Below are positions 34,445 through 61,200 of a stretch of DNA of 64,000 bases, piece after piece (positions within the stretch are counted from its first letter, which is position 1; every line of letters begins with the position of its first letter). A model generated the notes under the pieces. The model was given only the letters and a program-made list of their open reading frames with translations, had not been told where the DNA came from and made no database searches. This DNA comes from Cliona cf. orientalis (lineage: Eukaryota > Porifera > Demospongiae > Clionaida > Clionaidae), in the NCBI GenBank assembly GCA_963930775.1, contig OZ005695.1, forward strand, positions 806,001 to 870,000, given 5' to 3'. The position numbers were made by a program, and so were the translations under genes.

Positions 34445-37400
34445 CTATCTGTTCCAGGAGGTCTCAAATTGTTCTTGTAATACCCTTGCGGTGTCCTTTT
34501 CTTTCAAATGTTCCTCTAACGCTTCCACAATCCACTTCCCAACATCCTTGACTCCCTTAATCCCAGCATCACGAATGTTTTGCTGTCCCTCCTGACATTT
34601 CAAGAGCGAATCATTGTCCACTTTCAGCGAGTAGAGATCCACAGTTCGCAAGGGAGAATCAGAAGCTTTTGTCATAATTTTTTTACGAATACCCTAATAA
34701 TAAATTTCGATCATTTTCAAAATTAAATTTTCTAGCATAGTCTTACCTCCACTTCTTTCTTGATGGCTCTCTTAGCGTACGCTGGATCTCTTTCACTCTT
34801 CTCCTCATCTGCGCACTCAGCATAGAGTCTGTCCCCATGAGTCAGGCAGACCAGGTGGGGAATGGCGTACTGGTTCAGCTTGTTGCACCACTCAATAGCT
34901 GCTCCAGTGTGGGCATTTCTGTAGCAGGTGATCATGTGACTTTAATAGATAGCTAGCATGCATACATTAGTCTCATCCCCAGGCTCTCCAATCTTTTTTT
35001 TTTTTTGCATGAATTGAAGATGATGGAGAACCACCTGTATGGTATAGCCTCAAGCACGAGTAGATGAGGCTTTTCAAAAAAGTACTGCATCAGCTGTTCA
35101 AGGTATCAGTATCAGGTTTTCAATACTGGTACCTTGAAAGCTGATGCAGGTACCTTAAGAAGTTGATGGTTAAATTTTGAGGCAATACATATCTCATCTA
35201 CTCCTGCTTGAGGCCGGCTATACCCTACAGGTGGCCCTAACAGTATGTGGCTGCTAGTGATAATCTTTACAGTGGTCATAATTTACCTCATACATAAACA
35301 CTGATAGCAGAAATTGCAGAATTTTCCCAGAATTTTACGGCCGCATGAAACACATGCTATAGCTACCATAATATTATAGCCCATGAACACTCAAACCATG
35401 TGATAACATACAAGGGTTGGCCACATGACATACCTGTAATTGACGACAAACACCACCAGCTGGGCGAGGGTGCGGAGAAGGTTGACCAGATCCGAAATGC
35501 TATCATCTTGGTCATCAACACCTGGAAAGTCGATCACATCAAAGTTCTCGACTCCTTTGATGCCATAGATAAATGGTACTGTGGTACGCTTCTCTTCTCT
35601 CGTACCTGTTTCAATTGCCTATAATAAGATTACAAGAGATAAAATAAGCCAAAAGGCAATGCTTATTGACATGTATACCATTATTTGGAAGAGTTCTTTG
35701 ACTAGCGTCGACTTTCCAGAGTTTACGAGCCCCACAACTCCAACACTGGTGTGGCAAGAGAGTTCAGTACGCAATTTGTGCATCGAGAGGGAAAATTTGA
35801 GCCACCTAGCTATCAGTCGACGATGGGAGGGGACTATCGTTGATAATCCAATGTCCTTAAACAGCATTTCCCAGTTTTCTTCAATTACTTCCAATGGAGT
35901 AGAATTGTCGATCTGTTGGTGTTCTGGCACTGTAGAATTAGCAAATTTCCAATAGAGATGGCTTTCCAGTGAGTAGACAAGAAATTTATCATCTATCAGA
36001 ATAGGCTCATCGTGACGAAGGCTGGAGCTTAGCAAGAACTGTAGCTTGCCAGCATACTTGCTGTTGGCAATGTCTCTGTCAGTTTCTTTCTTTGTCTCGT
36101 AAGCAGGAACTGTATGGCCAGTCTCATCTGCAATGCTGCGAATATGCCTACTGACTGAAACGTACTGTGTCGAAATGTTCTTGGACACTTTTCTTCGGAA
36201 TATCCCCAGACCAAGCTTTAAAAGCTGCCAGTAGCTGACCGTGAGGTTGTAATCGGAAACTGGAATACGAACGTACTCTTCCATGAAAGCAGTGATTATT
36301 TGGATGCACATGTGTAGCTCTTCGTTCCGCAGCCGATTCACATAATCGAGAAGTCTGGCATTGTGTGCTTTGGTGGAGGATTTTTCAGCATCCCTAGCTG
36401 AACTTGGGCGTGTTCTTAGTGTCTCTCTCGTGTTGGTTTGCAGCTCCAAAAGCTCACTTCGACCTTCTTTCAGGAGAGTCCGCGGAGATTTAATACCAGG
36501 TAACCTTGCAGCCTTTGGAATACCTTCACGTTTGCTGAGTTTCTCTGTAGCTCCAAACAGCGACTTTACACTGATTCCAGATACTGCAGGGATTCTTCCA
36601 TGACAATCATTAATCGCCTCCTCCACAGTCTCTTGCAGGTACTTGACTGTGTCAAAATTCTCTCCACTGTTTGAAGCGACATCGGGACCAAACCACTTCA
36701 GGTATTTGCTTTCGTGTGGAGAAGCTTTGAACCACAGGAAGGAAAAAGCAGCTCTTTTCTTTGCTGCAGCTACGAAGACATGAAATAAATCTTCCAGTGT
36801 CGTTGTTTGATCGAACTGAACTGTTTCACCTCGAAGCTTCGTGATAGCTAGGCCGGCGTTGATGAAGAAGCTTTGTGACAAGGGAGGCCTGATGTCTGCA
36901 CGCTTCAGGGTGCGGCACAGATGAGAAGCATTTCGATTGCTGCTAGTACTGGCAATACAGCAGAAAGCACTTTCAATCGGGACAATCCCTACGATCGATT
37001 TCAAAAAATCTTGAATCATCTTGAATCGTTTAGAGGTGTGAGGAGATGAAATTGAGGCACCATGGGGATATCGCTCAAGAAGTGCTCCAAGAAAAGACAG
37101 CTCAATGACTTCAGCTATCGATAAGTTGGCCACCTGTTGTTTCCGACAGGATATGTAAAATTTCTGCAAAGAGGGTTGAATCAAATATCATCAGAAAGAT
37201 ACACTGTAGTTTTACTTACAGCAATACCCCCTTATATTATGCCATTAATTACTGATAACTAAAATACATTTATGTATACTGAAAGCAAGATTGTACCATT
37301 ATACCTTGTGTTTAACTTGAACGTTGTTGAAATGATATTCTCCAAAATGAGTGAAGAGGCAGATATTGGCAGTCTCTTCTACTTCCTGGTAATCGTTGCT

Positions 37401-40400
37401 ATCGGATGCAGTCACTAGCTCCTCAGGAAGGGCAAGAGGTACTTGGTGCTTCTGAATGGATCGGCTTGATATCGACTCTTTCTGATCGACTAAAATTCTA
37501 TACTCCTTAGCACTCTTGCGAAGGTAGAGCATGACCTTGTATGTAAAGCAGAGATTATCGCCTTCCAGGGAGAGTGCTGCAGTCTTGTGGTGACTGAAAT
37601 GGTGAATCTCAAGTCGTTTGAGTGTAGGATTGACGAAATCACTCTGCGAGAGACCTTCTGGCCTGTCAAATCTCATATGTGAAGATTGCATTACATAGTG
37701 TTTCAATATCATGCTGAGATAGTACTCCGTGTTATGCTGGAATATTAGAATAATATACAGTGTATGCAATAAATTTAAAAAATTAACAGAGAGCTACTAG
37801 TAATCTACATACCTCGTGAAACATATCTTCCTTAATCTCTTCATCAGTTGGGAATTCAAAGTCGCTGTTCTTGCACTCAACAAGGCCGAGAGTACTGCCG
37901 ACTTTACGAAACGTCACATGACAAGGTATAACATTGGATCTGTGTCTCTTCACGTGCTGTAGCACTCCACGCAAGTCCTGCAGTGCATCAAGGACACTTT
38001 TCGGACCGTCACTATTCCTGTGCCTTCTCTTAGTAAGCTGTTGGAACATTCTCTCACTGGTTGGGTGGCCTCCCAGCTTCGCATCAATCGTCTGGTAGAG
38101 GCGTCGCTCAAGGTGGTGAACCACTCGCTGCATACTGGTATGCACGTGTGTGTCGTTGCTATCTTGAATCACTTCCAGCTGCTCAATCATCGATGTACTT
38201 AATTCATTCTGAAAATTCTGAAGAAAGACAAATGTACACACACAATAATACAATGGCACATCTGGTAAAGTACAGCTTCTTGGATTGTGTGTTACAATAG
38301 TATTATTACCTTCTCAGGATTGTGCTTGCTCTTGTACTTTTCTGGCACACTGCAAGTGGGATTCTTAAGCTTGGTGGAGGTAGGGTCAAGGTACCTCAGC
38401 ATTCGTGGAATTATGTCATCATCGACGTAGATGGCATGGAAACGGCTTTTGTCGGCAACTCTGTCGGAGAAGTTCGGAGCCCTGGGCAGTGGGATGATCG
38501 GCTGACCGAACGTGATGCACAAGAGATTCTTCTCCAGTAGCTCGGGACAGATGCCTTGGCTCAGGCTCCACAGGTGGGTGGCACACAGATGGGCTAGTAT
38601 CCCTCCAAATGAAAAACCTTAAAGTCGGATACATTCATAGCTAATATCCAAGCAACTCAGCACAATAATTATTAATATTATCTGATTTGATACAAATGTT
38701 CAGTACCACCCCTCAAAACTGCCAAGGAATCATTAATAATCCATTATTATCATTCACATTATCCATGCAAGTGTGGACTAACAATCATTATTAACATTTT
38801 GGATGCAAGTGTGGAGCATGCACGTGTACCTGTCAACACCACTGATGCTCCCTCCCACAGTCTTTCCAAAATGAACTGAATGGGTAGCTGTTCCAGCTGC
38901 TTTCTGAACCCTGCGATTATTAATAGTAGATATACATGAATAATTTAGAGGGGATACTGAACTAATATATTGGGGGGGGGGGGGGAGAATTGCATCCCCC
39001 CTTGCCCATTTCACCCCCTACAAACTTCCTTCTTTGAATAAGCTGGGCATACCTTCTTCAAATGAGACATGACCGCAACTCCACTCCTTCAAACTCTGGT
39101 GGCTGCTGAATGCCATGTAATAGATCACATGACCATCAGGTTCAGTCTCTCCCTTGGCAATCAGATACTGATGAACAGGGGCGCTGTGTATCGCACTTGG
39201 GCTCAGTAGTGGCCACGGTATTTCTCTATTTGAACTCTCAGCTAACTTGCTATCACTTGTGCTGGACTCTATGTCGTGATCGGATCCCGTACAGGATTCG
39301 AGAAAGTCATTCTCGGGTTGAGAGCCTTTTTCTTCCTTTCCCGTAAGTGAAAGAAGGTCAGATTTATTGACTTCAGAGAGTGAATGTGGATAAATAAGAT
39401 AGTCCGAGGCACTCTTCAACTCAGAACAGTCCAACAAGTGACAAGCTAGGAGAGAATTTTGGACAGCTACTTCGCCAAAATTTACTTCACTAAACGGCTG
39501 CTCTTCTAGGGTCTGCTCGAGGCTTGATATCGATGACTCAGGATTGCGGACAGCATTTTGTTTCAGGATCTCCGCTTTGCACCACTGATAGGTGTCACCA
39601 TCAATCACAATGTCAGTGTCTTTGGTGTGGAGATTTTCAAGAGCTCTTTGAATGATATGAACTTCAATACCCATATCCAGAGATGTCGTGATGAAGGATT
39701 TCATGGCCGTCTTGTTCATTTCTACTTTACTTTCTTTAGCTTTCTCAGATTCAGAAGGAATACTTTGAAGAGCGATTAGCTGTTCTCTCAGCCTCTTCAT
39801 TGGACCATCAATCTTTGATTTAACTAAAAGGAGCATACGTTGGAGAGTTAACTTGTTAATCTCATCAAGGCTGTTAATATTTAATACACAACTTACCAGA
39901 GCTTCTATCAACATTTGGAGACAGAGTATTCGACTGCAGCATGCCATTTTCTCCGGTTGCTGCCATGAACTGATGATCAGCGCTGCTACTACTAACACCA
40001 GGTAAGGTCACTGCTGATTGTCCGGTAATTATTGCACTAGAAGTACCTAAAACCAGTCAAGAGTAATTGTCAGTGTATGTCCAGCCACAGTAAGGATGAA
40101 CTATAATATTATATCATCTATGGTCGTACTGTAAATTTATGGTCAGATATTGAATGCACACTGGAGCCTATTTTACTTGGAAATGGCACCAGCACTCACC
40201 AAGTAGGTTATCTGCAAGATTTTCCAATTCGTCCACCTTCTTGATGTGCTGGCAAAAGCTTTCAAAGAAGCTCGGGTCGCCTTCGACCTTGGCTCGTAGT
40301 TTGTCCATGACGCTGCTGTAGTCTTCGCTGTCATTCGCGTCATCCTTCTCATCCTCCGTTATGATTTCCAGCTCCTCAAACGCCTCGAGCATGTCCACAT

Positions 40401-40482
40401 TCTCTTTGCATGATCGAACAAGTTCCTCGCTGTGAGTGGACAGAGATTGGAGAGCAGCCTCTCTTTCCAAGCGGTCGTCCAT
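34445..40482 (-). CDS. CARD-like / alpha-beta hydrolase / GTPase protein, gene 1
   Basis: Eleven exons encode about 1,500 residues. Exon 1 (40482-40200) is a CARD-like six-helix domain (EELEIITEDEKDDAND, DPSFFESFCQHIKKV, LADNLLG). Exons at 40046-39897 and 39823-39053 are a Ser-rich linker and helical part. Exon 38910-38830 plus 38617-38310 form the hydrolase core, with ASVVLTGFSFGG giving a GxSxG nucleophile elbow, then CITFGQPIIP and a VDDDIIPR acid site. Exon 38217-37813 holds a conserved His (PCHVTF). Exon 37736-37315 is the beta-rich module. Exon 37163-35679 is helical and ends in the P-loop GLVNSGKST. Exon 35618-35434 has DFPGVDDQD (G3), exon 34918-34747 has LTHGD (G4 position), and the last exon ends at 34445. 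The ATG at 40482 is preferred over an upstream in-frame TTG. The family is not one I can name; the hydrolase resembles class-3 lipases and plant EDS1. Confidence 0.8.
35031..35234. repeat. Long imperfect hairpin (foldback) in an intron of gene 1
   Basis: The left arm runs CCACCTGTATGGTATAGCCT then CAAGCACGAGTAGATGAG. The right arm is its complement, CTCATCTACTCCTGCTTGAG then GCCGGCTATACCCTACAGGTGG. A second inner pair, TGCATCAGCTGTTCAAGGTA and TACCTTGAAAGCTGATGCA, brings the arms nearly together. This would be a near-continuous stem of about 85 base pairs, typical of a MITE. Confidence 0.85.
38971..38986. repeat. Poly-G run in an intron of gene 1
   Basis: A run of about 14 G residues interrupts the intron between the linker exon (39053) and the hydrolase exon (38910). 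It could form a quadruplex, and its exact length may be a sequencing artefact. Confidence 0.7.
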
Positions 40483-40605: not shown

Positions 40606-43600
40606 ATGGCAGCAGGCTCTCCACCCGATAAGAAATGTTACAGCGGACTCAAAGCGCCCGACGCCAAGGTGGCTAAGAATGCTATCGCGAAAGCAGCCAA
40701 ATCCCTCCGCGCCTTGCTCGCGAACGATGAAGAGAAACTCGAAGTTTTGATTCAGCACGGTCTGATTCGAGACAAAAACGCTAAAAGTGTTACAAAAGAA
40801 CTGCAGGAGATCGTCGTGCAAGAGCCGGCTTTGTTTTGGATCCTACTTCGAGAGATCGAAAATTTTGCTGACGGAGCAGAAGCGGCGAAGAAACTGGAAG
40901 GTACAGCAGAATGGATTTTAGATTTTAGAAAGCAGCAGTATCTTGAGTGATATTGTTTATTTGTAATTTCAGCTAATTGTCCTTCCACTGATCACAAAAC
41001 CGATGCAGCCAAACCTACAGTTCACGAAGCTCGAGTGGTTCTAGGTAAGACTCATTTGGTAATGGTCGTTTGCATTCATATCGCGTTCTGTAATTTTGAT
41101 GATCATTACCTAATTCCCAGTCATACTTTTGCACTCTTAGGCAATTTAAGAAAGAAATTGAGTGTTTTGAAGGATATGAACCCAACAGAAGACATCATCA
41201 AACCTGCAATTATTGAAGCTATTTCTCAGGAGTTGAAAAACTCCACTGACATTGGACTCATCACGAATGAACTTTCGTGCATGCAGCAAGAGGAGCTAAT
41301 CTCACCAGAGCTGCTGACTTGGGCCACTGCTGAAACACAGAGGGAGCACCGACACATGCTTGCAATAAATGTCGATGATTACGATCAACTAGTGATGATG
41401 TGTCCTCCAGTCGAACTCAGCCTTGATGATCTTTACAATGCATCCCTTTGCAGTACCATGGTTAACAAGTCAAGTGACACAGAGCATTGCAAGAGGTTAC
41501 TTCAAAGTCTCTCCTACAATCCTCTGAAGGAGCTATCCCTTTCGCAACCGACTGATGTAGCAACATTTCCAAAGTGTATGATTGCGATCAGTGAGCCTAA
41601 TGGAGGTGGGGCCACCACATCCACGTACTACGTTGCTTTCGAGAATATTGTCGACTATAAAGCCTGGAAGCTGTTCGATGATGATCAGAAGGCATCCTTT
41701 GGGAAAGGTACTATAATTATAGTGCTACAATTTGAATTTTATTTCCCTTCAAATTTTATGCAGTGCTTGAACATCAGATTGAGAAAATTCCTACCCTTTA
41801 CTTTGAAACAATCATCAAAAGAGAAGAAAGGCTGGTTCTTACCGGTAGGCTAGAGATCGATTTGATTATTATAATTATCTAAAACTTCCTTTTTTGTAGG
41901 ATTTTCCTTTGGTGGTGTGTTGGCCCAGATGGTAGCAGCACAGCTGTGGCTTCTACCCCACACTAGGACCGATCAGTTGATGTCCAACGTGATTTGCATC
42001 ACCTTTGGGCAGCCGCTCATCCAGAGCTTACTGCTGACACACGTTGCCGAGAGTTATCCAGACTTCAAGAACAGTGTTCACGCTATTGGCTTGAAAGATG
42101 ATAATTTTCCATCCATTGTGGAAAAAATTGACTCTCAGACTATCACAAAGAGGGTAAGCATTATTATATTTCGTAGCCTAATAACTGCCGCATTTAATAA
42201 CATGATTGTGTTTGCCAGATTGGACTGTTTACAGCCTTGGAGAATCTTCAATGTTTACAGGAGTTTTATTGCACTCAAGAACAATTGTGTATGGAAAATG
42301 CACTAGTAAGTACTATTAATTTAGTTTATCACCTGATTGGTAATGTAATAATATTATATAGACTGAAATACCTTCAAACTCCCAACTTGGTGCATCGGGT
42401 GAAATGATGGCTTCAACTACTTCACAAAATGAGCCAAGGTGCTTTGATGAGCACGAAAAAGGTTCTGAACGAGCCAAAATAGTGCGAGATCCAAAAGTGT
42501 TAGCAGCTAAGAGAGAACTTAAGAAACTACTACAATCACAGCACGACAAATCTGATGTACCGACGGATTTTGCTGCTAAATGTCACCTGATTTTGTGTGC
42601 TGATTCAGGGTTGAAACTGATTGAAATGAGCGAAGGATTACAGGAAAGTTTGAAGTGTGATAAAATGGACGATTTAATCAATCAAGAATGCTTCAATAAA
42701 GTGAGTACCTGTAATTCCTAATTATACAATAATTATGATAAGATTACATTTCGTAGCATTCTTATGGTGTCTACTATCGATCTGTTAAAAAGCTGGCTAA
42801 AAATCACCGGACAAATAATCAACCAATCTCCAGTGACTTTCTTTGTCCTCTCATTGAACAAGTGAAGGTCACTTGGTATGGAAGTGAGGCGATTATTGTG
42901 GTAAAGGGGCACAGACTATGGTTTGTCCACTCCATTCGCCTACCAGCTACAGCAGCTGCCAAAGAGCCATTTCAAGCACAAGAGACCTCTGTGAGCTTTA
43001 AAGCAAAAGTGAGCGACTTCAACGGGAAAGAAGATGAGGTGATTGTTTTATCCCACTTTTCTGAACCAATAGCAAAGAAAGTGTGTGTGGAATCAAATGT
43101 AAGTTGGTTGCTGCATACTGTTGTATACATCATTCATAGCATGGTTTAGCAGATATAGTGTATTGATCTTGTATTCAATCTGTAATAATTGTGATGCTAA
43201 ATATAATAAACCTTGATTATCTACTTTTTATATACAGCCAGATAATTTGAGCCCAAGGGGTAGGCAAATTGCCAGATTGGAGCCAGCTCGCCTCCTTGAG
43301 CTTGCTTTTATGATGTCATTGCTAGAGAAGAGTGCAGATCGGTTCAACAAGTCGAGTCAGTTGCAACTAAGTGACATGCCACCTTTTGTTACCTATTTTA
43401 AGCAGTTTCTGCTCGACATGCTCTCCGTCGTTCCGTACGAGAGTATTTTGTGTGCAGTTGCTCACTGCCGCAACAAAAGTACAGCAGACCTCTGCTCACG
43501 TATGATCAAGAAGCTAAGCATACAATTTCCTTTCTCTCTAACGATGTACGCTAGTTCATTTGTGGCAGCATTTCAGATTCAGCATCAAAAGTCCGGTGAA

Positions 43601-45635
43601 GCGAGTATGACTGAAGTTTTCGATCAGCTGCCATTTGAAGACTGCGCTTACTTCATTTGGCTGAAGGCAAAGTATCTGAAGGGAACTTCATCAAAAGCAG
43701 CAGTCACTTCATTTTCGGAGGAAATCTTTACCGACCCATATATCTTCATATCCCTTCATCTTCTCGATGAAGATGCTCTGTATCTAAGAAGGTTAGTGCA
43801 GCAGTCTCTTGAGCAAGTTGAAACTCTTTCAAAAGTGAGAGCTGTCTCCAATAAATCAGCCACTGATCTGTTTAGTTGGAGCAATGCAGGTTCCAGCTCA
43901 TCAAAGAAGGGAGCAAGGACACTGAAATCACCAATTTCAGTTCTCATTGAAGGAAGACAGGTGCTGCATCCGATCCCGAAGAAGGACATATCGACAACCC
44001 CTCACAAGTCAGACACCACAAGACCTCGCACTTACGATGAAACGATGAAGGTGCTCGACAATGCTCGTGGTGGTCAGATTGATTTGAGTACGGGGGTGCT
44101 TTGCGGCTTCATGTATCAGCACGTTCGAGTGCCTTTCACTGAATTTAACCCGATGACCTTTTGGAAGAGCCTACGTCATCACATTGCCCCCTACTCAGAT
44201 GTATTCAAGAATGATTCTGAGTTCTGGACGTCCATACTGAAAAGATGCCAAAGAGCTATTACTAAGGGCTCACAAGTTGCAGAGCGCACGTATGACGCCA
44301 AGCTGAAGTTCCTGGTGAATAACATTGACCCTGAAACAAAAGGTCATACCACTCCCACTGCATCAGAGCATTCAATGTACACATTTGAGAAAAAGCTGAA
44401 AGAGCTCTGCTTGGAAAGAGGAATCACAAAAGATAAACCAATCGATCGAATCGTTCATGCTTGGAAAGTGCATTTTGAGCACGAAAACTGTCCAATGGCA
44501 AAAGTTGCTACAACCCACCGGTCGCTGATCAGTCGATGGATTAAGTGGTCCTTGATGATCCATGAACTTCGACTTACCCTAGAAAAGCACATCACAATCG
44601 CCATACCTGGACTGGTCAACTCTGGCAAGACACAACTGATACGGAGCCTTTTTGGTTTAGACGTAAGTGTTATAAAGACTACTGTATTGCTGATTTTTTT
44701 ATATTTTATCTTCTCTTCATCGTAATGATCCAGGTCAAAGCCGGCACTACTGAGCAGCGGCGTACGATTGTACCCTTTATGTACACTCTTGCTCCTGATG
44801 TTAAAAATGTCCACATAATTGATCTACCAGGAGCTGACGATAGTGATAGGAATGTTTCTCAGCTCACAGAGTTCTTGAAATTCATTTCACAGATTGTGGT
44901 ATTTGTTGTCAGCTATGAGTAAGTTCATACGGAATAATGAATGGTCTTAGTTATGAAACTATGTGATTTTTGATGAATTTTTTTGCTTTTTCATTCAGCA
45001 AAGCTCATACAAAGGATGCTAAGAGATGGCTGGAACTGTTTGAGAACGAATTAAAAGATGAATCAGCTAAGCCCAATAAAGACTCAGATGATTGCATCGT
45101 CATATCGGACCCCCAGTTTGAATCTAGCAGGATCGAAGGAGAAAAATCTGATGTTCCAATTCTCATGTGCATGACATTTGCTGACAGACTACTCGCTGAA
45201 ATGTTGGATGATAGTGGTGAATACAACAAGGCAAGGGCCAAAAAAGACATTGCAAAACATTTTGAGGTGAGTGTCCCTATGTCATAGATCAAACCAATAG
45301 CACACACAGCCATGTGGGGAGTGGGGGGGGGGGAGGGGCAATAATATTAATTCTAATTTTTAGACCTCGCTTTTCTATCGTAGGACATATCTAGTGCCTA
45401 CTATGGCCAAAGAGTGTGGGTACCTGAAGGGAAAAGAACTCTTGGCTACTACTGCTTCAATCTGAGCAAGAGCACTCTCAACGACGAGGATGTGAAAGCG
45501 GTGGGCATCAAAGTACCGTCTGACGTGGGGGAGTGGATATGTCGGCAGATCAGAGATGAATTGCATGAAAATGACACTGCAGATCAACTTGAAGCCTACT
45601 TTAGTCAGTCCTGTAGAAAACTCAAGGAATTGTAA
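40606..45635 (+). CDS. CARD-like / alpha-beta hydrolase / GTPase protein, gene 2
   Basis: The most readable member: twelve exons sum to 4,167 bases in perfect frame (1,388 residues). They are 40606-40900, 40973-41044, 41141-41707, 41764-41844, 41900-42153, 42219-42305, 42362-42700, 42757-43098, 43238-44662, 44734-44918, 44999-45266 and 45384-45635. Domains: helical CARD-like fold 1-98; helical/beta part 123-338 with YYVAFENIVDYKAW; hydrolase elbow GFSFGG at about 339-344, then VICITFGQPLIQ and the acid site LKDDNFPSIV; candidate His at about 527 (KCHLILCADSGLKL); beta module about 566-679; helical region 680-1135; P-loop GLVNSGKT near 1138-1145; DLPG near 1184; CMTFAD at the G4 position; C-terminal helices. 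Presumably cytosolic, as no signal or membrane helix is seen. The start ATG at 40606 is preferred over an upstream TTG. Function unknown; an immune sensor or effector is the leading inference. Confidence 0.85.
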
Positions 45636-47530: not shown

Positions 47531-50500
47531 TTATAATTTACTACAAGATTTTGTAAAGTATTCTGCAAGCCTATCCGCAGTGTCACACGCACACAAATCC
47601 TCCCTAAGCTGCTGGCACAACCAGTCCCCCACATCCGATGGAACTCCAATATTTACTGCTCTCATGTCACTTTCACGAAGACTACTGTGGTGCAGATCTA
47701 AGCAGTAGCAGCCTAGAGTTCGCTTCCCATTCGGCTTCCACATATACTGACCATAGCAGGTACTCGATGTCTCCTGAAATAAAAAAAATTAGAACAGTGT
47801 CATAAATTCCCAGAATAATAATGATTTTTACCGGAGTATTATTATTTATACCATACTCCTAGATAGTTACGTATATACCTTAAAGTGGTTTTCAATTTTC
47901 CGTTTTGCCATTACTTGGTCATATTTACCGTCGACCATCATCTCTGCGAGCAGTCTATCGGCAAAGGTCATGCACACTAGGACAGGCCTGGAGTCTTCAT
48001 CCACAAAGCCACTGTCATCACTTGAGCTGGTGCTGCTGCTCTCTGATCCCTCGGCTTTCTTTTCAAATACTCGCAACCACTTTATTGCATCCTTTGTGTG
48101 GGCTTTGCTGAGAGGTGGGAAAATAATATAGATCTATGCTATAATATCTATGCTAGTCTATACAAGAAAAGCTACTGCATGATCTAATTAGCGCAAGAAA
48201 ATTCGCGTTCCCATAATGAGCACGTGACGACCTTTACCAGAAAATCACGCGAAATTTAAAATCGTAATTTTTTACCTTGCGTTCTATTATATAGCATAAG
48301 CACAGTATTATAAATATCATGTACTGTGCCATATATATAGAGACAACTTACTCGTAGCTGACAACGAAGACTACAACTTGTGAAATGAATCTCAGAAACT
48401 CTGTGAACCAAAGCACATCCTTGTCGCTGTCATCAGCACCAGGAAAATCAATAACATGAACATCCTCAATGTCAGGAGCAAGGGTGTACATGAAGGGCAC
48501 AATCGTACGTCGAGACTCAGTAGTCCCAGGTTTAACCTGTGACAGTTAAAAAACAGAGTAGAGAATTATAATATCAAAAACTGCATTATGCCCATACACT
48601 AAAAAGCTGGGAATTGGGCTTGGGAATGAGGCTATAAGTTGGACTACCCCTTGCATTCATTTTGTATAATTATATTCTTACATCAAAACCAAACAGGCTT
48701 CTTATCAGCTGTGTCTTGCCACAGTTGACCAAACCAGCTATTGCGATTATGATGTGATTTTCTAGGAGAAGTCGAAGTTCGTGGACTGTGAGTGACCACT
48801 TGATCCATCGACTGATGAGGCTACGATGTGAAGACGAAATATTTGCCATGGGACATCCCTTGAACAACTTTTTCCATTCGAGCACCATTCGGTCAACTGA
48901 GGTTTGCTCTCCAATGTTTCTCTCTGAGCATATAACCTTGAGTTTTTTCTCAAGCATATACGTGGAATACTCAGTAGATATGGCAGTGGGATGAGACTCT
49001 GAATCAGCTTCTGGTACGATATTTGTGATCAAAAATTTGAGCTTGCTGTTGTAGGTGCATTCTGCAACTTGTGATCCCTTGGAGATAGCTGTTTGACACT
49101 TCTTCAGCAGTGAGGCCCAGAATTCTGAATCATTCTTGAGTATACTTGAGAAGGGGGCGATCTGGTAGCGCAAATGTTTCCAGAAGCTCATAGGATTCAC
49201 TTCCGTGAAGGGCACTCGAACGTGTTGATGCATGAAACCGCACAGCACTCGAATGCAGAAATCAAAGTGCACTCTACGAGCATTTTTAAGCACTTTCATT
49301 GTTTCCTCGTAAGATTGGGGTTGGAAGGTCATTTCTTCAAATAAGTGAACAGCAGAGTTATCACTGTTTCGATGTAAAGTTTCTCGTCCTGATATCAAAA
49401 CTGTAATAGGAGATTTCAGACATTTGGAATATATATTAGGTACTGAATCAGCTACGGGTGCTGCACCACGTGATGTATACAGATCAGCAGCTGGTTTGTT
49501 GGAAACAGCTTCCACTTCTGACAAACTATTGACACTCTTTAGAGAAGCTCGCACCATCTTTTGCAGGTAGAGAGAGTCATCGCTGAGATTATCTTGTGAG
49601 CCAAACATATACAAATCAGTGAATACCTCCGCTGAAAAGGAATCCACCGCAGGTTTTGTCGAAATTCCTTTCGTGTACTTTGCCTTTGACCACGTGAAGT
49701 ATGCACAGTCTTCGAGTGGTTGTTGCTCGAGAAAGCTGGCTTCAAATGAAATATCATGCTGAATCTTTAAAACAGCCACAAACGAACTGGCATACATCGA
49801 TAGGGAAAATGGAAATTCCAAACCTAGCTTCTTCAAGACACGTAAGTCACGCTTGACAATTTCCTTATCGTGGCTTTGGGATATTGTACACAAAATACTC
49901 TCATAGGGAACTACCTCCAAAATATCATGAAGAAATTTTTTGAAAGAATTGAAAAAGGGGGTAGATTGGCTAAGATGAGCTGCTGGCTGAGAATCACGAT
50001 TACTAGAACGATGCGGACGTCTTTCCAACAGGGACATCGTGAAAGCAAACTCAAGTAGATCATCAGGCTCGAATTTCGCTAGTTTTCTGCATCCTGGGCT
50101 TAACCTATTCAGCTGTAATAATGAAATAACTATAATAATGAAATAACCATTTCGTGAGATGCTATTAACATTATCTTGCACAGGTCATATGAGCACATCT
50201 CGTATATACATGCATACTGTATGGCGGGTAATTTTCGTGGGGGCTAATTTTCATGGAAAGTCCGAAAAGGCCCTCAAAATTAAATTTTGTGGTTTTAAAT
50301 TTCGTGATAGCAACCAGTCCAGGGACGTGGCACTGCTGCACAAGCAATGATGTAATCAATACACGCGCTCACAATCTTCTTTGTTACTAAGCTATACCTA
50401 CAGAGACTTGGATAAATAGCATGAGATAGAAGAATATTAGTGTTAAAGACGCCATTAGCTGGATAACAATGGCTACTGTTGCCTGCTAATACTGGGAAGT

Positions 50501-53500
50501 ATTGGCCACGCTGCCACGATGTTTGTGGCCATGCTCATCATCATGGACTCGCATATCACCGTAGGCATTAATTTTCGTGGGTGGGAAAATCTCGTGACTG
50601 CCAAGTCAACCATGAAAATAACGAAAATTACCCGCCATACGGTACTTAGAACTAGTACTTACATCTACTTCCACTCGGAGCTTCACTTGTACCGGCTGAT
50701 GAAAGTACGAGAATACCTCGATTTCTCTTTCCTCCTGGTTCTTGGGAATCTTGATGCTATTGACGTCCGTCTTAAAGCAGATGGAATACTCCTGAACTTG
50801 AAACGGATCCTTGATGGTCGTTGACGAGAGCTTGAGCGAATGGACGAACCAGAGCTTTTGCCCTCTGGCCACAATGATAGCCTCCTTGCCGTACTTGGTT
50901 ATCTTCATCTTCTCGATGTAGGGACGTAAGAACTCGCTCGAGACTTGTACACCGCTGACTTGACTCTCTCCATCATCATAGGCCAGCTTCTTGATCGAAT
51001 TGTAGTAAGCACTTGCTGTATGCTGCATAATAATAATAATAACTATTACACGTGCATACACAATGACAAACAGTCAAAAATTTAATTATAATTGTCTGCA
51101 ATTCTGCATACCTGGTCAAAACTCTCTCGCTGTGAATCAGCTTCCGTGTATCTTTCTTGGGGCAGTTCTTCCATCGGAAAAAGCTTCAGACCCGATTCAT
51201 CGTGTACAATCACGTGCCGTGTTGCAGCAGAATTGTCACGTGAATTTGAGTGACATTGAGTTCGTAGTAGCCACTCTAGTTTGCTCTTGACTACCATAGT
51301 TTGAGAATTAGATTGAGTGTCACTATCTTTGGGCATTTTTGGAACACGAACACTGGTAGGACCTCGTTTGAATTGTGAAGAGTCACAATGCAATCTAGGC
51401 GTGGACAATACTGTTGAAGCCTGTGGTTGAGTAGTGGTATTGATCAATAGTACAGATAAATTTAATCTTTGTCACTATCTTTACTTTTTTATTCATCATG
51501 GTGTTGGATGATTGTTCTTGATCCAAGTGAAACTCTTGCAAATATACTACATCCTCCAAAATGGTGGATAGCTTGACCTATATAGTTATTAATGGTAGTA
51601 TAAAAAATCATTTGCATAATGAAGGATGAAGTATAGAGATGGCAGGGGGAAAAGTACACAAACAATATTAATCACATCCACTATACATCCCTACACTTGG
51701 TTTTCTCGATCATCATGCACTTATCTTGTTTGTTAGACGCTCTTGACTTGCATGTGGGAGACATTATTGGTTGTTTATGCACCCCTCAAAAGCAAGCGCA
51801 GGGATGTATAGTGGATATGATTATCCCTATAAATCTTATTTGTATACTTTTTGGCCCTGCCATCCTTACTTCATCCTTCAATTTTATTATTCAATTGTTT
51901 ATACTTTTCTGTTCTTTTTTCAGTGTTATAATTCATCTTATACCATTTGCTCATTCAACTGTCAATGGCCAGTGTAATTAAGTAGAAGATGGAGGTGCCG
52001 AAGTTCATGTGTGTGTGCAAAATTCGTAGCCACACCCCTCGTTAACTTGCGTTCCTATGCCTATGTGATTAAGCAGGCTGACAAAGAAGGCTGCTTTAGG
52101 CGGCCAAAGTAGCGATGAGACTCTTACATATAGGGAGAAAATCAAGTTCTAAGTTTATTATTGGTGCAGCTACCATAATCTTATGATCTGTAATTACCGC
52201 TCCTCAAGCCTTGCGCCTTCATATCCATGATCGATCCAGTGGAGCACTAACACTGCACAAGCTAGTGAGTAGCTAGTGCTCGCTTTGCTGAATCTATAGC
52301 TCGCCAGGGCGCTGTCACATGACTACAATATGGCAATACATTGTGAGCATACACATTATATCACAAAATGGTGTATCAGACACACTCAATTGTCAATGCC
52401 CCATACTATTACGTAACTATCAAGATAACGCAATATTAGTGTGCCACTGCACAGTGGGCTACAAAATGTTATACTCAAACTAAGATGAGAGGTCATTATC
52501 AAGGTTGGTTCACTCCTTAAAAGGTACGGCACTCTGAAGTTTCCCCATAATATTATGTTTGTACAGGGAAGCCAAGCATTTGCAATATTTTCCACCCACG
52601 TGCTACGTGATGGGTGGGGTTACGCACGTACATAATATATGTGATGACCTTCACCCAATTTGCACAAAATTGTAGTATGCTTGCATTGTATGGCTCTAGT
52701 ATGCAATGCAGCTTAGCTTTGAGGTGGTTTTCAAACACTCTTTTTTTCCTCCTTAGTGTGTCGGTTCCTTTGCTACACAATAATTACATACTAAGTAGAA
52801 AAAAAGACTTCCATTACTGGGACTCAGGGGAGCGGTTGGGACCGTAAATTCTCTATGGATACACAGAATGGTTCAAATTATCCACTCTGTGATATAATAT
52901 TATCATTCATTGCATAATCATACCTGTTGATCATCTGTGTAAGTGAGGCAGTCTACTTTCTCGACAATGGTCGAAAAACTGTCGTGGTCCGAGCCGATTG
53001 CATGAACATTATTTTTGAAGTCCGGGAATATCTCGGCAACGTGTGTAAGCAGATCGCTCTGGATTAGAGGCTGACCGAAAGTGATGCAAATGAGATTGGA
53101 CGTCAATTTATCAGTGAAGGTTGCAGTGTTGAAATAGATAAATGACTCCATTGCATTGGGTAACGAATTCTCATACAGGGGCAGCAGCCATAAACGTGCT
53201 GCCAGCATTTGAGCCAATACACCTCCAAATGAAAAACCTATAGATAGAGAGTATGGTATAAAGCTGAAGTGCATTATACCTAATGATTTTATGGTCAAGT
53301 ACTTGCCTGTGAGAATAAGCCTGTTCACAGTTTTAATAATTTCCTCCAAGGGAAATTTATTGACTTGATATTCAAGCACTAAAGCAGAAGAGAAATAATA
53401 ATTCCATTATAATTTTTATTTTTGATGAGATCATACCTTTCCCGAAAGTTGATTTATGTACACCAGTTACCAGCTTCCGAAGCTTAAGATTCTCAAATGC

Positions 53501-54843
53501 TATATAGCAGGTTGTTCCCCCCGATTTATCAGTAGATAATGCAATCATGCATCTTGGGAATCCAGCCTCATCTCCAAAGTGTAAAACAGACATCTCCGTC
53601 AGTGACCCACTGTACGACAAGATCTGAAGCAGCTGTCTGCATTGCTCAGTGTCCATTGCTTTGTTAACCACTGTGCAGCAGATTGAGGCATGGTAAAGAT
53701 CAACTTTATTGAGCGTGGCCTGACTAGGTAGTGGTACGATATCGTCGGATATGAAGGAATTTACGGATATATCGGACAATTTAGCCAAGGCCCAGTCTAA
53801 GATCGATGGTGACATTAGTCCCTGATGGTGCATGGTCGAGAGCGCCTCCTTCATTCGTCCAACTTGATTGCTTAAATTCTTCATCTCCTTGGCGATCGCT
53901 TCTGTGATAGTGATTTGTATAACTGCATCTGTTGAATCCATATCCTTCAAAACACTTAGCTTAGTCTTCAAGTCACTGAGTACTAAGTATACAAAAATGA
54001 TCACACCAATAAAATCACGGATATATTCTTACCAGATATAATCTTACAAGGTGTGCCAGATACACTTTTTCAATTAGTGCTAATTACAACGTACCTACAT
54101 CCACAGCAGAAGCAATAGGGGTGGAGGTGGGGGCGGGGTCTGCTACACCAGACCTGGAGGAGGAGGATCCTCCAATGGAGGAAGCAGAGATTTCAACATC
54201 CCGGGCTGAGGACAGTTCACTCTGAACAAGAGGGGTGGAGTCAACTGAAGTAGCAATGCCGTTTTCTGTGGAGACGGCAGGTGCAAGTGATGTCAACAAC
54301 CCTGCCAAAGTGGCTTTGGAGTTTGTTGCTGTAGGTAGAATTAAATGTCACTTTATGATACACAGCTGCTAGCTACACTGTATTTTCATCAGCATGTGTA
54401 TGTATGCAGATAATATCATGGCTATATTAGGGTTAAGTGGCATAAATGGCATCCAATTTTTCGCGTGCTATTGTGACAGGGTTTTAGGTCACCAGTATCT
54501 TCTATGCCTGAAAATTGTCGTGGTGCCGTTCTTGCCACTTGATCCATAGATTATTAGAGACAAACTCACCGAGAAGGGTACTTGCTATGCTACTCAATTC
54601 TTCAATCTGTTTAATATGGAGGCAAAACTTCACGAAGAAGCCTGGATCGGCATTGATATTTTCTTTCAGCTTGACGATCACACAGGTGAAATCATCTCTC
54701 TCATTGGCATCATCCATTTCGGCTGTCGTGATGATATTAAGGTCCTCAAATGCATACATCGCTTCCTCACATTCTTCACACAACTCGAGAATCTCTTTTT
54801 CGCAGCTCGAAATAGCGTAGAGAGCTGCGTCTCTCTCCATCAT
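47531..54843 (-). CDS. CARD-like / alpha-beta hydrolase / GTPase protein, gene 3
   Basis: About twelve exons in the same order as gene 2. The CARD-like first exon (54843-54570, 91 codons) has FEDLNIITTAEMDDANERDD and GFFVKFCLHIKQIEEL. A Ser/Thr-rich linker lies near 54331-54097, then a helical part near 53983-53437 and hydrolase exons near 53379-53305 (NRLILTG) and 53238-52922 (GFSFGG, ICITFGQPLIQ, GSDHDSFSTIV). Then come a small exon near 51578-51489, the candidate His exon 51447-51112 (TRHVIVHDESGLKL), the beta module 51023-50664 and the helical exon 50112-48682. That exon ends in a P-loop with a cysteine, GLVNCGKT. G3 (DFPGADDSD) is near 48538-48356, G4 (CMTFAD) near 48108-47880, and the last exon ends at 47531. 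Tandem partner of gene 4, with C-terminal exons almost identical. One intron carries a family A MITE absent from gene 4. Confidence 0.82.
48185..48312. mobile_element. MITE family B remnant in an intron of gene 3
   Basis: In the opposite orientation to the copy at 13591, it reads TAATTAGCGCAAGAAAATTC, then GACGACCTTTACCAGAAAATC, and ends CATAAGCACAGTA. The equivalent place in gene 4 (56660-56770) has the same element, so it was present before the duplication. Confidence 0.7.
50217..50642. mobile_element. Foldback/MITE family A copy with TA target duplication, gene 3 only
   Basis: Ends are CTGTATGGCGGGTAATTTTC and its inverse GAAAATTACCCGCCATACGG, closely related to the element at 6766-7220. 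TA flanks both ends (50215-50216 and 50643-50644). Gene 4 at 58687-58709 reads GCATACTTAGAATTAGTACT with a single TA, which is the intact empty site. Length is 426 bp, with no coding content. Confidence 0.9.
51621..51879. repeat. Inverted repeat of about 85-base arms in an intron of gene 3
   Basis: The left arm starts GAAGGATGAAGTATAGAGAT and the right arm ends with its complement (CATCCTTACTTCATCCTTC). Both arms contain the ATCCACTATACATCCC segment or its complement. A loop of about 85 bases separates them. Gene 4 (about 62960-63130) keeps only the left arm and loop, so the right arm was lost there. Confidence 0.75.
52530..52800. mobile_element. MITE family C remnant in an intron of gene 3
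   Basis: The segment shares GTACAGGGAAGCCA, CCCACGTGCTACGTGA, ATGACCTTCACC and the poly-T then CCTTAGTGT end with the elements near 59000-59830. An ACTAAGTAGAAAAAAA end lies close by. A shorter copy sits at 63130-63270 in gene 4. Confidence 0.65.
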
Positions 54844-55276: not shown

Positions 55277-58200
55277 TTATAATTTACTACAAGACTTGGT
55301 AAAGTATGCTGCAAGCCTATCTGCAGTGTCACACGCACACAAATCCTCCCTAAGCTGCTGGCACAACCAGTCCCCCACATCCGATGGAACTCCAATATTT
55401 ACTGCTCTCATGTCACTTTCACGAAGACTACTGTGGTGCAGATCTAAGCAGTAGCAGCCTAGAGTTCGCTTCCCATTCGGCTTCCACATACACTGACCAT
55501 AGCAGGTACTCGATGTCTCCTGAAATAAAAAAAATTAGAACAGTGTCATAAATTCCCAGAATAATATGATTATTATTGGAGTATTATTATTATTATCATA
55601 CTCCTATAGATAGTCACCTTGAAGTGGTTTTCAATTTTCCGTTTTGCCATTACTTGGTCATATTTACCATCGACCATCATCTCTGCAAGCATTCTATCAG
55701 CAAAGGTCATGCACACTAGGACAGGCCTGGAGTCTTCATCCACAAAGCTACTGTCATCACTTGAGCTGGTGCTGCTGCTCTCCGATCCCTCGGCTTTCTT
55801 TTCAAATACTCGCAACCACTTTATTGCATCCTTTGTGTGGGCTTTGCTGAGAGGTGGGAAAAATAATAATAGATCTATGCTATAATAATGATATTATTAT
55901 CCATGCTTATAGCTATACAAGAAAAGGTACTATGTTTACCCCGCGTGCGCGCATGCGCAGCAGGGGGTAAAGCAATCGGTTTGTCTGTCGTCTGTTGTCT
56001 GTTGTCTGTCCGCACAAAAATCGGCAAATCTCAACATTTAGGCAAAAGTAGAATCAACAAATGGGACAAAATGATGTAAGACAGCAAAAAAACACCTTCT
56101 GTCTCATTCTTAACACTAGGCAATACCCAAGGAAGCTACAAATCGTGCGAGTATGTCGGACACGCCTACTTCGGACACGCCCATCTAGTACCTCCTAAAG
56201 TCTATTGCGCATGCTCGAGCTGCTCTCTAGTTTTTATACTGCGCATGCTCGAGCGGCTCTACAGCATACTTCTATATAGCTCAGAATTTGTGATCGTGGA
56301 CCTCAGAAGGGAACGACAAAGTTCATGAGTAGCAAGCAAGAGATCCAGGGAAGCTACAAATCGTACGAGTATGTTAGACACGCCCACCTACTGGGGTAGT
56401 AGTACCTCATGAAGTCTATTGCGCATGCTCAAGCTGCTCTAGGGAGTCTACTGTGCATGCTCGAGCTGCTCTACAGCATACTTCTAGCACAAAATTAATG
56501 TCATTTGTGATCATGGATCTCAGAAGGGAACGAAAAAGTTCATGAGTAGCAAGAGATTAAACTTCAAAGAATAGAGGTCTCTAACAAGAGGCATGGCCAT
56601 GGGTGATATTGCCATGGCACGCGGGGTATGTGCTCTATGAGCTCTAGTTATTGATAAAACGTATGATTAGCGCATGAGCGCTTGACGACCTTTACCAGAA
56701 AATCGCGCGAAATTTTAAAATCGTATTTTTTAAAGCTTGAATGCGTTCTATTAGCATAAGCACAGTATTGTACTGTGCCATATACAGACAACTTACTCGT
56801 AGCTGACAACAAAGACCACAACTTGTGAAATGAATCTCAGAAACTCTGTGAACCAAAGCACATCCTTGTCGCTGTCATCAGCTCCAGGAAGATCAATAAC
56901 ATGAACACCCTCAACGTCAGGATCAAGGGTGTACATGAAGGGAACGATTGTACGTCGAGATTCAATCGTCCCAGCTTTAACCTGAAAAAAAAAAACAAAG
57001 TAGAAAATCAGTTGAATTATACAATCTCATCTCCAGATATACTCATAGCTTTCAAAAATGGCACACTAAAAAGCTGGGAATTGGGCTTGGGAATGAAGCT
57101 ATAAGTCATACCACACGCACACCAGTACCATGCATTCAGGTATTCTTACATCAAAACCGAACAGGCTTCTTATCAGCTGTGTCTTGCCAGAGTTGACCAA
57201 ACCAGTTATCGCGATTGTGATGTGATTTTCGAGGAGAAGTCGAAGTTCGTGGACTGTGAGCGACCACTTGATCCATCGACTGATGAGGCTGCGATGTGAA
57301 GATGCAATATTTGCCATGGGACATCCCTTGAACAACTTTTGCCATTCGAGCACCATTCGGCTGACCGAGGTTTGCTCTCCAATGTTTCTCTCTGAGCATA
57401 TAACCTTGAGTTTTTTCTCAAGCATATACGTGGAATACTCAGTAGATGTGGCAGTGGGATGAGCCTCTGAATCAGCTTCTGGTACGATATTTGTGATCAA
57501 AAATTTGAGCTTGCTGTTGTAAGTGCGTTCTACAACTTGCGATCCCTTTGTGATAGCTCTCTGACACCTCTTCAGCAACGAGGCCCAGAATTCTGAATCA
57601 TTCTTGAGTATATCTGAGTAGGGAGCGATCTGATAGCGCAAGTGTTTCCAAAAGGTCATAGGGTTCACTTCCGTGAACGGCACTCGAACGTGTTGATGCA
57701 TGAAACCGCACAGCACTCGAATGCAGAAATCAAAGTGCACTCTACGAGCATTTTTAAGCACTTTCATTGTTTCCTCGTAAGATTGGGGTTGGGAGGTCAT
57801 TTCTTCAACTAAGCGAACAGCAGAGTTATCACAATTTTGATGTAAAGCTTCTCGTCCCGATATCAAAATTGCAATAGGAGACTTCAGACATTTGGAATCT
57901 TGGTTAGGTGCTAAGCTAGCTACGGGTACTGAACCAGCTATGGGTGCTGCGCCACCCACTTTATACAGATCGGTAGCTGGTCTGTTGGAAACAGCCTCCA
58001 CTTCTGACAAACTATTGACACTCTTTAGAGAACCTTGCACCATCTTTTGCAGGTAGAGAGAGTCATCGCTGAGAATATCTTGTGAGCCAAACATGTACGA
58101 ATCAGTGAACACCTCCGCCGAAAAGGAATCCACCGCAGGTTTTGTTGAAATTCCTTTCATGTACTTCGCCCTTGCCCACATAAAGTATGCACAGTCTTCG

Positions 58201-61200
58201 AGCGGTTGTTGCTTGAGGAAGCTGGCTTCGACAGACGTCTCGTGCTGAATCTTGAAAACAGTCATAAACGAACTGGCATACATCGACAGGGAAAATGGAA
58301 ATTCAAAACCTAGCTTCTTCAAGATGCGTAAGTCACGCTCGACAATCTTCTTATCGTGGCATTGGGCAATTGTGCATAAGATGCTCTCGTAGGGAACCAC
58401 CTCCAAAATATCACGAAGAAATTTTTTGAAAGAACTGAAAAAGGGGGTAGACTGGCTAAGATGAGCTGCTGGCTGAGAATCAGGACTACTGGAACGATGT
58501 GGACGTCTTTCTAGCAAAGATGTCATGAAAGCAAACTCAAGTAGAACATCAGGCTCGAATTTCGCTAGTTTTCTGCATCCTGGGCTTAACCAATTCAGCT
58601 GTAATAATTTTTATATAAACCAGTACATTTTGTGAGATGCTATTAATATTCTCTTGCACTGGTCATGTGAGCACATCTTGTATGTCATGCATACTTAGAA
58701 TTAGTACTGTATTTATGAACACAAGCTAAAAAAATGATTGTGATTTTAAGGTACCATTTAATTGCGTGGGCGTGAGCGTCAGGAATGGCTAATTCAATTA
58801 GCGAATCGTGAAGGGGCGTGGCCGAAGAGGCCATACGAGTGCTTTTGGTCGAAGGTGGGCGTGTCCAGAATCGGCCAGGGATGATTATGCGCGTGTAATT
58901 AGCGACCGGAAGTGGCCCCTGAAGAAAAGGCCGGTAATTGCCCACATCAAAGCAAGATCAAAGCATTCTTTCTTAACTATTAACCGCAACGACAAATTAA
59001 ACACTAAGTAGAAAAAAAAAGCAAATTTAAATAATTAAATAATTAAATAATCTAATTCATGGGGGGTTTGGGAGTACTTGGGGGGATAATTTTTACATGA
59101 GCATGCAGAATGAGTCAAAACTAGAATTTTGATGGCAGGGAATTTTGATTCACACTTTAGAATTAAAGTTACGGCCCTTTGAAGTTTTCCCATATGTTTG
59201 TATAGGGAAGCCATGCGTTTGCAATGTTTTCCGCCCACGCGCTACGTGAAAAACGGGGAATCCCCGTTAGGCACGCGCACACAAACGTGACGACCTTTAC
59301 CTACTTTGGTCAAAATTGAAGTATAGGGTGCCTGCTTGCATTGTATGGCTCTACTAAGCATCCAGCTCAACTATGTGGTGGTTTTGGACAGTTTTTTTTT
59401 CTGCTTAGTGTTCTGGTCTCCTTGTTAAACACTAATTAAACACTAAGTAGAAAAAAAAAAAGATTTTTAATTAATTAATTCAGGGGGGAACTGGGAGCAC
59501 TTGGGGACACAATTTTTGCACCGGCGCGCAGAATGGATCGAATGCAGAGATTTGACCTTCAGGAATTTTGATTCACGCCTTAGAATCAAAGTTACGGCCC
59601 TTTGAAGTTTCCCCATATGTTTGTACAGGGAAGCCATGCGTTTGCAATGTTTCCGCCCACGCGCTACGTGAGGGGCGGGGCCACGCGCGCACATAAACGT
59701 GACGACCTTTACCAACTTTTTGACAAAATTGATATTTAGGCTGCCTGCTAGCATTGTATGGTTCCACTATGCACCCAGCTCGATTATATGGTGGTTTTTG
59801 GACAATTTTTTTTTTCTGCTTAGTGTTCAGGTCGCCTTGAAAAAAAAAAAAAAAAAAAAAAAAAAAGCTTATTAGGCCTAATTAAGCATGTGGGCGTGTT
59901 CCTGGCACTGTGTGGAGTGTGTGCGTGTGCATTAATGCAGGTTTTATTGCTTCCGATTGGGCGTGGCTTCACGGGCCAGTGCTTGGACATCGGCGCCTGG
60001 GACTTGGCCTCGGCGATAGGTGGGCGTGTCCCGGATGCGGTGGTGACCTTTGAACCCCGCGAGGAGGCTTTGGGGGCGTGGCAGGAGGTCAAAGGTGAGG
60101 CCATGTCTGTTAATGAGGCACTGTACGGCGGTGCGATCGAGGGGCCTGTACGGCTGGACGGAAGCTGACGATGGTTTGAAGCGGATGTGGTTGCGATGAC
60201 GTGTTGTTACTCCGCCCACACAGGAAATGAGGTGAGCTCTTGCGTGGGCGGTGTGGCAGAACGGCCTCCAAGTGTTTGTGTGTGTTTTGGCCTTGAGGAA
60301 GCTGTGTGTTTTAATTGGGATTGATTGTGGGCTTCCGGTGGACATCCGGTGGTTAGTAGGCACTTGATTGAGAATGGTGGTCCTTGGGGAACAGGGTGGG
60401 GCTGTTTTGGGCGTGGCCTGGCCCCTCCCTTCCGGCTCGGCTTCCGGTCCATGGAGGATATTAAATGAACACTTCCGGCTCTAGCAGCCACACCCCTGAG
60501 ACCTGTGCAATTAAAAGGGCGTGGTTACACAACATGCACCTCACTAATGACTTTGATGTGGTTTAGGTGTCATATCCCCCACCTCACGCCCACGCAATTT
60601 AATGGTACCTTAAATGAAAACTTGACCATGTCCTCGGTGGCTGCATAGTGGAAATGGTGTGTGTGGTAAAGGTCGTCAATATAGTGGGTTCACGGTACAG
60701 TACGCCTCAGTCGCAGACTAGACTCGGATCATCTGGAGTCTGAGAGTTGCTCTCGACCTCGACAGTGAAAAGTTTCAAAGCTGAGAAGAACTCAACAGCG
60801 CAGTACAGCTTCCGAACTTCAGATCGGTCCGGGCCAGCCCCTTCAACTGCTTCAAGAGAGGGGCTGGCCCACCAGACTAGTGCGTGCTATATATAGCGCA
60901 GGGCTATCTATATATATCCACGGGATTATGTCAGCCAAGAGAACGCGTGAAGTTCGGCCGTCGCTGCTCGTCAGAGAAGGCAACACGCTGCTTGTAAGGT
61001 ATTCGCTGGATACACGCGCAAGATACTCTACATATTCACTGAATTTCGAGTTGCAAAAAGGCTCCATCGAGGCCCTGAATTTTCTCATAATTATCTCATA
61101 GATTACACCATAGGTTTCATCATAATTAACGCATAATTACCTACTAACCACAAAAAATAAATTGTTACCGAGGACATAATGAAAAACTTAGAGACTATAT

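Follow-up and report, generated by a model that had tools for sequence, protein, structure and literature searches.

A clustered sponge gene family combining an EDS1/PAD4-like lipase domain with a C-terminal GTPase, and its possible role in immune-type signalling

Analysis of a 64,000-nucleotide stretch from the sponge Cliona cf. orientalis (contig OZ005695.1, C7:806001-870000 in a genome of 216.8 Mb; hereafter the window) found that gene 2, on the + strand, encodes a small helical N-terminal domain, a lipase-like alpha/beta-hydrolase domain, a beta-rich module, a large all-alpha domain and a GTPase in a single chain. The gene belongs to a family whose lipase-like domain likely has a specific kinship with EDS1, PAD4 and SAG101 of plants. 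We tentatively propose that its proteins are GTPase-switched, death-fold-linked receptors or effectors of lipase type, with a part in defence or cell-death control. A preliminary description, made from the letters of the window, had noticed this combination and suggested an immune role; the observation was confirmed and its interpretation is partly supported.

Gene 2 and its family

The gene 2 model was assembled manually from the window sequence, starting with the ATG at 40606 and with a stop codon ending at 45635. Its 12 exons encode 1388 aa and all internal junctions are GT-AG, and the coordinates and length first given for it were exact. A spliced-alignment script gave 11 introns identical to these; as its input was the gene 2 protein, this is a check of splice consistency only. 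Exon 1 (40606..40900) encodes the N-terminal helical domain (residues 1-98), which is at best weakly CARD/death-fold-like, exon 2 (40973..41044) a linker, and exon 3 (41141..41707) a helical linker and the N-terminal part of the lipase-like domain (residues 123-311). The lipase-like domain continues in exon 4 (41764..41844) and exon 5 (41900..42153), the latter encoding the GFSFGG nucleophile elbow (Ser341), a CITFGQP motif and Asp406. Exon 6 (42219..42305) is followed by exon 7 (42362..42700), which encodes a poorly conserved middle region (residues 453-565), and by exon 8 (42757..43098), which encodes the candidate catalytic His566 and then the beta-rich module. Exon 9 (43238..44662) encodes the all-alpha domain (residues 680 to about 1115) and runs into the P-loop GLVNSGKT of the GTPase, which is completed by exon 10 (44734..44918; G2/G3, RRT and DLPG), exon 11 (44999..45266; G4, TFAD) and exon 12 (45384..45635; C-terminus and stop). 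Only Lipase_3 and MMR_HSR1 exceeded their Pfam cut-offs on gene 2, and no NACHT/NB-ARC-type STAND ATPase, leucine-rich repeat (LRR) or TRADD-N was among the 8 Pfam families listed for it (up to E 10).

Searching C7:800001-916000 by tblastn with gene 2 (member B) revealed further members around it, for which spliced alignment yielded models A, C, D, F, G and H, all free of internal stops. Members B, C, D and G form type I (45-85% identical), and members A, F and H form type II (46-64% identical to each other, about 25% to type I). Member A, of type II, is located at 34457..40482 on the - strand, head to head with gene 2 and with an ATG-to-ATG gap of 123 bp. The type I members C (47534..54843) and D (55280..64000) also lie on the - strand, the latter partial and running on past the window end. 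Members A and C keep the domain order of gene 2, and their low ends mark the last aligned residue and not the stop codon; the two further complete members and one partial member described earlier for the window were all found. A third subfamily forms a second cluster at C16:597191-639568 (L015-L019), within the examined region C16:580001-640000, where M2, M3, M4 and M5 keep the domain order and M1 is a lipase piece. In total, the order lipase, beta module, helical domain and GTPase was found at 11 loci (gene 2 and 10 others) on the two contigs C7 and C16. The lipase exon is also present at two C10 loci, where the 10 kb examined showed no GTPase. These locus counts are lower bounds. Loose C-terminal GTPase pieces at C7:872511-873163 and C7:891083-891625 are perhaps remnants of duplicated family copies, and separate open pieces beside a family lipase exon (L022:335-3840, - strand) resemble what we take to be a Ty3/gypsy-type retroelement.

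Comparison of intron positions among the 7 models on C7 (given as gene 2 residue:phase) found introns 679:0, 1153/1154:0 and 1216:2 to be common to all seven, 312:1 and 565:0 to six, and 339:1 and 1305:0 to five; in models C and D, the 339 intron was retained as coding by the spliced-alignment script. The ratio of nonsynonymous to synonymous substitution rates (dN/dS) was about 0.10 for A-H and 0.15 for B-C, both values being rough because dS is saturated, and 0.41 for C-D (0.16 in the GTPase and 0.56 in the lipase). A search with gene 2 as a single sequence, scored over residues 200-1388, gave no homologue, which weighs against the observation. In a set of 5.8 billion proteins, however, a profile of exon 9 matched 55 proteins (2 of them marked as window-encoded) and a profile of the N-terminal domain matched 66 (1 so marked), with relatives present in other assemblies. 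The two lists have 12 contig sizes in common, or 11 without that of the window-encoded proteins (941761), equal size being a proxy for the same contig and not proof. Given the profile-matched relatives, the common intron positions and phases and the low dN/dS, the family is not a product of chance.

The lipase-like domain and its relatives

Gene 2 matched Lipase_3 over residues 331-390 with 27.9 bits (Pfam cut-off 22), in agreement with the GFSFGG elbow recognised earlier, and Lipase_3 was listed for all 12 scanned members (E<=0.1). Comparison with solved structures (PDB chains) found PAD4, EDS1 and SAG101 to be the best relatives of the domain, in line with the likeness to EDS1/PAD4 pointed out in the preliminary description. 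A 7-member profile matched PAD4 at 5.3e-8, SAG101 at 1.3e-7 and EDS1 at 1.9e-6; of 34 rows, the top 14 were all plant PAD4/EDS1/SAG101 chains, with a fungal lipase appearing first at 0.0026. A 12-member profile matched PAD4 at 2.2e-8, EDS1 at 3.3e-8 and a Rhizomucor-type lipase at 1.1e-5, with the plant family occupying the top 12 of 37 rows, while two EDS1 rows (1.7e-5) came below the Rhizomucor-type lipase. Used separately, the type I profile also placed PAD4 first (4.7e-4), the top 14 of its 16 rows being EDS1-family chains, and so did the type II profile (1.8e-6), followed by SAG101 (0.0016), a fungal lipase (0.0039) and EDS1 (0.0054 and weaker). A TG-x-x-x-GG elbow and a C-[IV]-TFG-x-P-[LI] stretch are common to the sponge and plant proteins in the alignments, and both have a helical region further along the chain; the gene 2 family differs in adding the N-terminal domain, the beta module and the C-terminal GTPase.

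These data suggest that a specific kinship with EDS1, PAD4 and SAG101 is likely. That the resemblance is instead general class-3 lipase similarity is a serious possibility, although not the one we prefer. As plant class-3 lipases are scarce in PDB, the ranking may be biased; moreover, a Rhizomucor-type lipase stands above two EDS1 rows with the 12-member profile, and fungal lipases stand above all EDS1 rows, although below PAD4 and SAG101, with the type II profile. Against this, PAD4 was ranked first by each subfamily on its own, and an ordinary class-3 lipase of the same genome, searched as a single sequence and not as a profile, gave no EDS1-family chain in 33 PDB rows (E<=1), its matches being feruloyl esterase and fungal lipases. 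The hhalign score was 106.5 with EDS1-family pieces versus 48.6 with three ordinary lipases of the genome, the former having been preselected by the family's own profiles and the latter not. The gene 2 domain shares Lipase_3, the Ser-Asp pair and a candidate His with class-3 lipases, both fungal and the ordinary ones of the genome, but these rank below most EDS1-family chains in PDB, and the gene 2 domain lies inside a multidomain signalling-type chain.

Ser341 was found in 10 of the 11 models (M5 has Leu) and Asp406 in all 11. In the stretch from residue 206 to residue 680, only two His positions are kept in 10 or more of the 11 models: H399, which shortly precedes the Asp, and H566, with which exon 8 begins. 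Conservation therefore points to Ser341-Asp406-His566 as the candidate triad, with residues 424-565 as a putative variable insertion; the assignment of H566, conserved in 10 of 11 models, rests on a weakly alignable region. Acid and His candidates had also been noted in the preliminary description. In M5 the elbow reads GYLFGG, and both the nucleophile Ser and the candidate His are lost.

GTPase, helical domain and changeable heads

The P-loop GTPase described earlier at the C-terminus was confirmed by GLVNSGKT and by a match to MMR_HSR1 (residues 1132-1227, 33.5 bits versus a Pfam cut-off of 21.9). The G1-G4 motifs GLxN[SC]G, RT, D[FL]P and T[FHY]xD were present in all 11 models, with DFPA at G3 in member F. 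MMR_HSR1, SRPRB and Dynamin_N were listed for 7 of 7 G domains, Dynamin_N scoring 25.2 bits on that of gene 2, below its cut-off of 27. On these motifs and matches we class the domain as a TRAFAC-type GTPase. Likeness to IRG or GIMAP GTPases, which had also been suggested, found no support: neither IRG nor AIG1 (GIMAP) appeared in the list of 20 families (E<=1) obtained with the 7 G domains, a result that does not speak against distant kinship.

The beta-rich module and the long helical region were both found where they had been described. No known family was found for the former. The helical domain has a confident predicted fold, but no solved fold matched it at E<=0.001. For 40 members of the helical domain, a list of 17 families (E<=0.1) did not contain the EDS1-specific C-terminal EP helical domain, and there was no EDS1 chain among the fold matches listed for the domain.

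The N-terminal domain was seen in members B, A, C, D, F and G, and not in H or the M models. Member F has a different head: an ORF (open reading frame) at C7:880986-882572 (L011:4986-6572) encodes a RING, two B-boxes and a coiled-coil stretch, the last read from the sequence and not predicted by a tool, together with the family N-terminal domain, and is spliced at the usual site of the family, near residue 122. The matches were to zf-B_box (2.4e-15, 2 stretches), zf-RING_UBOX (32.7 versus 25.2 bits) and zf-C3HC4 (30.3 versus 21 bits), and the order RING, B-box, coiled coil is that of TRIM E3 ligases, from which member F differs in having the lipase-GTPase cassette after the coiled coil. No other member was found to have a RING/B-box head, the upstream check being a simple B-box pattern in six members. 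As relatives such as P0111 start at a Met matching an internal Met of member F, the TRIM head seems to have been captured later.

A possible role in defence or cell death

The layout of the family, with a changeable head, a hydrolase pocket, a large helical part, an NTPase switch and clustered copies, resembles that of nucleotide-binding leucine-rich-repeat (NLR) receptors. A TRAF-like ORF is located just past the 3′ end of member A (window 33431-34396, + strand), with a MATH domain (1.2e-14) and a RING below cut-off. The genome has 49 CARD matches and 36 TIR matches; a dense TIR-domain run at C8:245391-1063527 holds a large part of the latter, and a run of CARD matches lies on one strand at C11:9070248-9132379. 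Introns together with CARD, TIR, TRIM-type and TRAF-like domains point to an animal genome. The CARD and TIR matches and the TRAF-like ORF fit an immune setting, but do not show it. Together with the NLR-type layout, they lead us to favour, tentatively, that the family consists of GTPase-gated signalling proteins in defence or cell-death control, which would probably be intracellular. A microbial or small-molecule cue would be read by the helical part, the hydrolase part or both, GTP binding or hydrolysis would lead to assembly, and assembly would cluster the N-terminal death-fold-like domain, or the RING of member F, and recruit partners. The hydrolase, with Ser341-Asp406-His566, may act on a lipid or, as in EDS1-type proteins, provide a pocket for a ligand.

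Several results weigh against a defence role. The dN/dS was below 1 in every scorable pair and domain, with no arms-race-type excess of amino-acid change, and clustered expansion does not by itself prove a role in immunity. For the N-terminal domain, the Pfam CARD match of member A missed the cut-off (13.7 versus 23.9 bits), CARD was not listed for gene 2 at E<=10, other families were listed as often as CARD or better, and fold searches gave no clear answer. CARD was listed for 5 of 48 relatives of the domain at E<=1 (best 0.0083). The CARD-like character first described for the start of the chain is at best weakly indicated.

Ranked next is a role outside immunity, in which the protein would serve trafficking or lipid turnover as a lipid enzyme or a membrane-remodelling GTPase, its hydrolase cleaving membrane lipid at the site of GTPase assembly. 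The similarity to Lipase_3 and MMR_HSR1/Dynamin_N, the retention of Asp in all 11 models and of Ser and the candidate His in 10 each, and the dN/dS below 1 all agree with such a protein, which we nevertheless consider unlikely: clustered expansion, the RING/B-box head of member F and the best match to signalling lipases suit signalling better, and Dynamin_N stays under its cut-off for the gene 2 G domain. Less likely again seems a scaffold with a pseudoenzyme as its lipase-like part, used for binding only, as is known for EDS1-type proteins. M5 lacks the nucleophile Ser and candidate His, and RGT occurs in none of the 12 rows of alignment A10, where the ordinary lipase L035 has FRGT; but Ser and Asp are kept in 10 and 11 of the 11 models, and since M5 has lost both Ser and His, the two may well be maintained together elsewhere. 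That neighbouring genes were joined by wrong splicing is very improbable: the models rest on genomic sequence, and those of C and D retain additional stretches in frame, of which at least one is an intron, but the same order recurs at 11 loci on two contigs, introns 679:0 and 1216:2 are in all seven C7 models, and front-end and exon-9 relatives have 11 contig sizes other than 941761 in common, equal size being a proxy.

Parts of the proposed signalling architecture are found in known systems. Kaur et al. (2021, PMC8195603) describe numerous variable proteins with Death-like N-termini in the sponge Amphimedon, as well as bacterial fusions of Death-like domains (bDLD3) with effectors that include an alpha/beta-hydrolase. 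The latter fusions resemble gene 2, whose own Death-like domain is a candidate, in joining such an adaptor to an alpha/beta-hydrolase in one defence-type chain; they differ in being bacterial, and a helical domain, beta module or C-terminal GTPase is not mentioned for them in the available text of that paper, from whose main text the words 'lipase' and 'EDS1' are also absent. Sponge death-fold proteins (NLRs cited in PMC10952240; TRADD-N proteins in PMC8195603) likewise belong to expanded animal families and begin a variable chain with a small helical domain, the NLRs having an NTPase as well, but gene 2 has a GTPase instead of NACHT/STAND, no established CARD, and no LRR or TRADD-N listed. 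Bryophyte NLRs with an N-terminal alpha/beta-hydrolase also place a hydrolase and an NTPase switch in one immune-type chain, theirs being NB-ARC with LRR (PMC10952240), and that of gene 2 a C-terminal TRAFAC-type GTPase. A literature search found no paper on the architecture of the gene 2 family, most subscription journals and preprints lying outside its coverage.

Two further ORFs were noted near gene 2, both on the + strand: a G-protein-coupled-receptor-like ORF at window 31983-33149 (Git3, 27.7 versus 24.2 bits), and, downstream of gene 2 at window 46032-46319, an ORF with a single hydrophobic, transmembrane-like stretch, read by eye.

To our knowledge, EDS1-type lipase-like regulators are known only from plants. 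There, EDS1-family heterodimers switch on helper NLRs in response to nucleotides made by TIR domains. It is conceivable, though improbable, that the sponge family is an animal counterpart of the EDS1 module, in which the lipase pocket and helical domain would sense a nucleotide-type signal (compare the 36 TIR matches of the genome), the GTPase would drive assembly and the death-fold or RING head would give the output; if true, one chain would do the work of plant EDS1/PAD4 and helper NLRs. If the role in defence or cell-death control is confirmed, gene 2 and its relatives would represent an undescribed kind of immune-type signalling protein. With an animal EDS1-like lipase combined with a GTPase and changeable heads, immune signalling of the lipase-like kind would reach into animals; such a family would also add an NTPase-switched multidomain class beside the NLRs, together with a large helical domain without a recognised fold.

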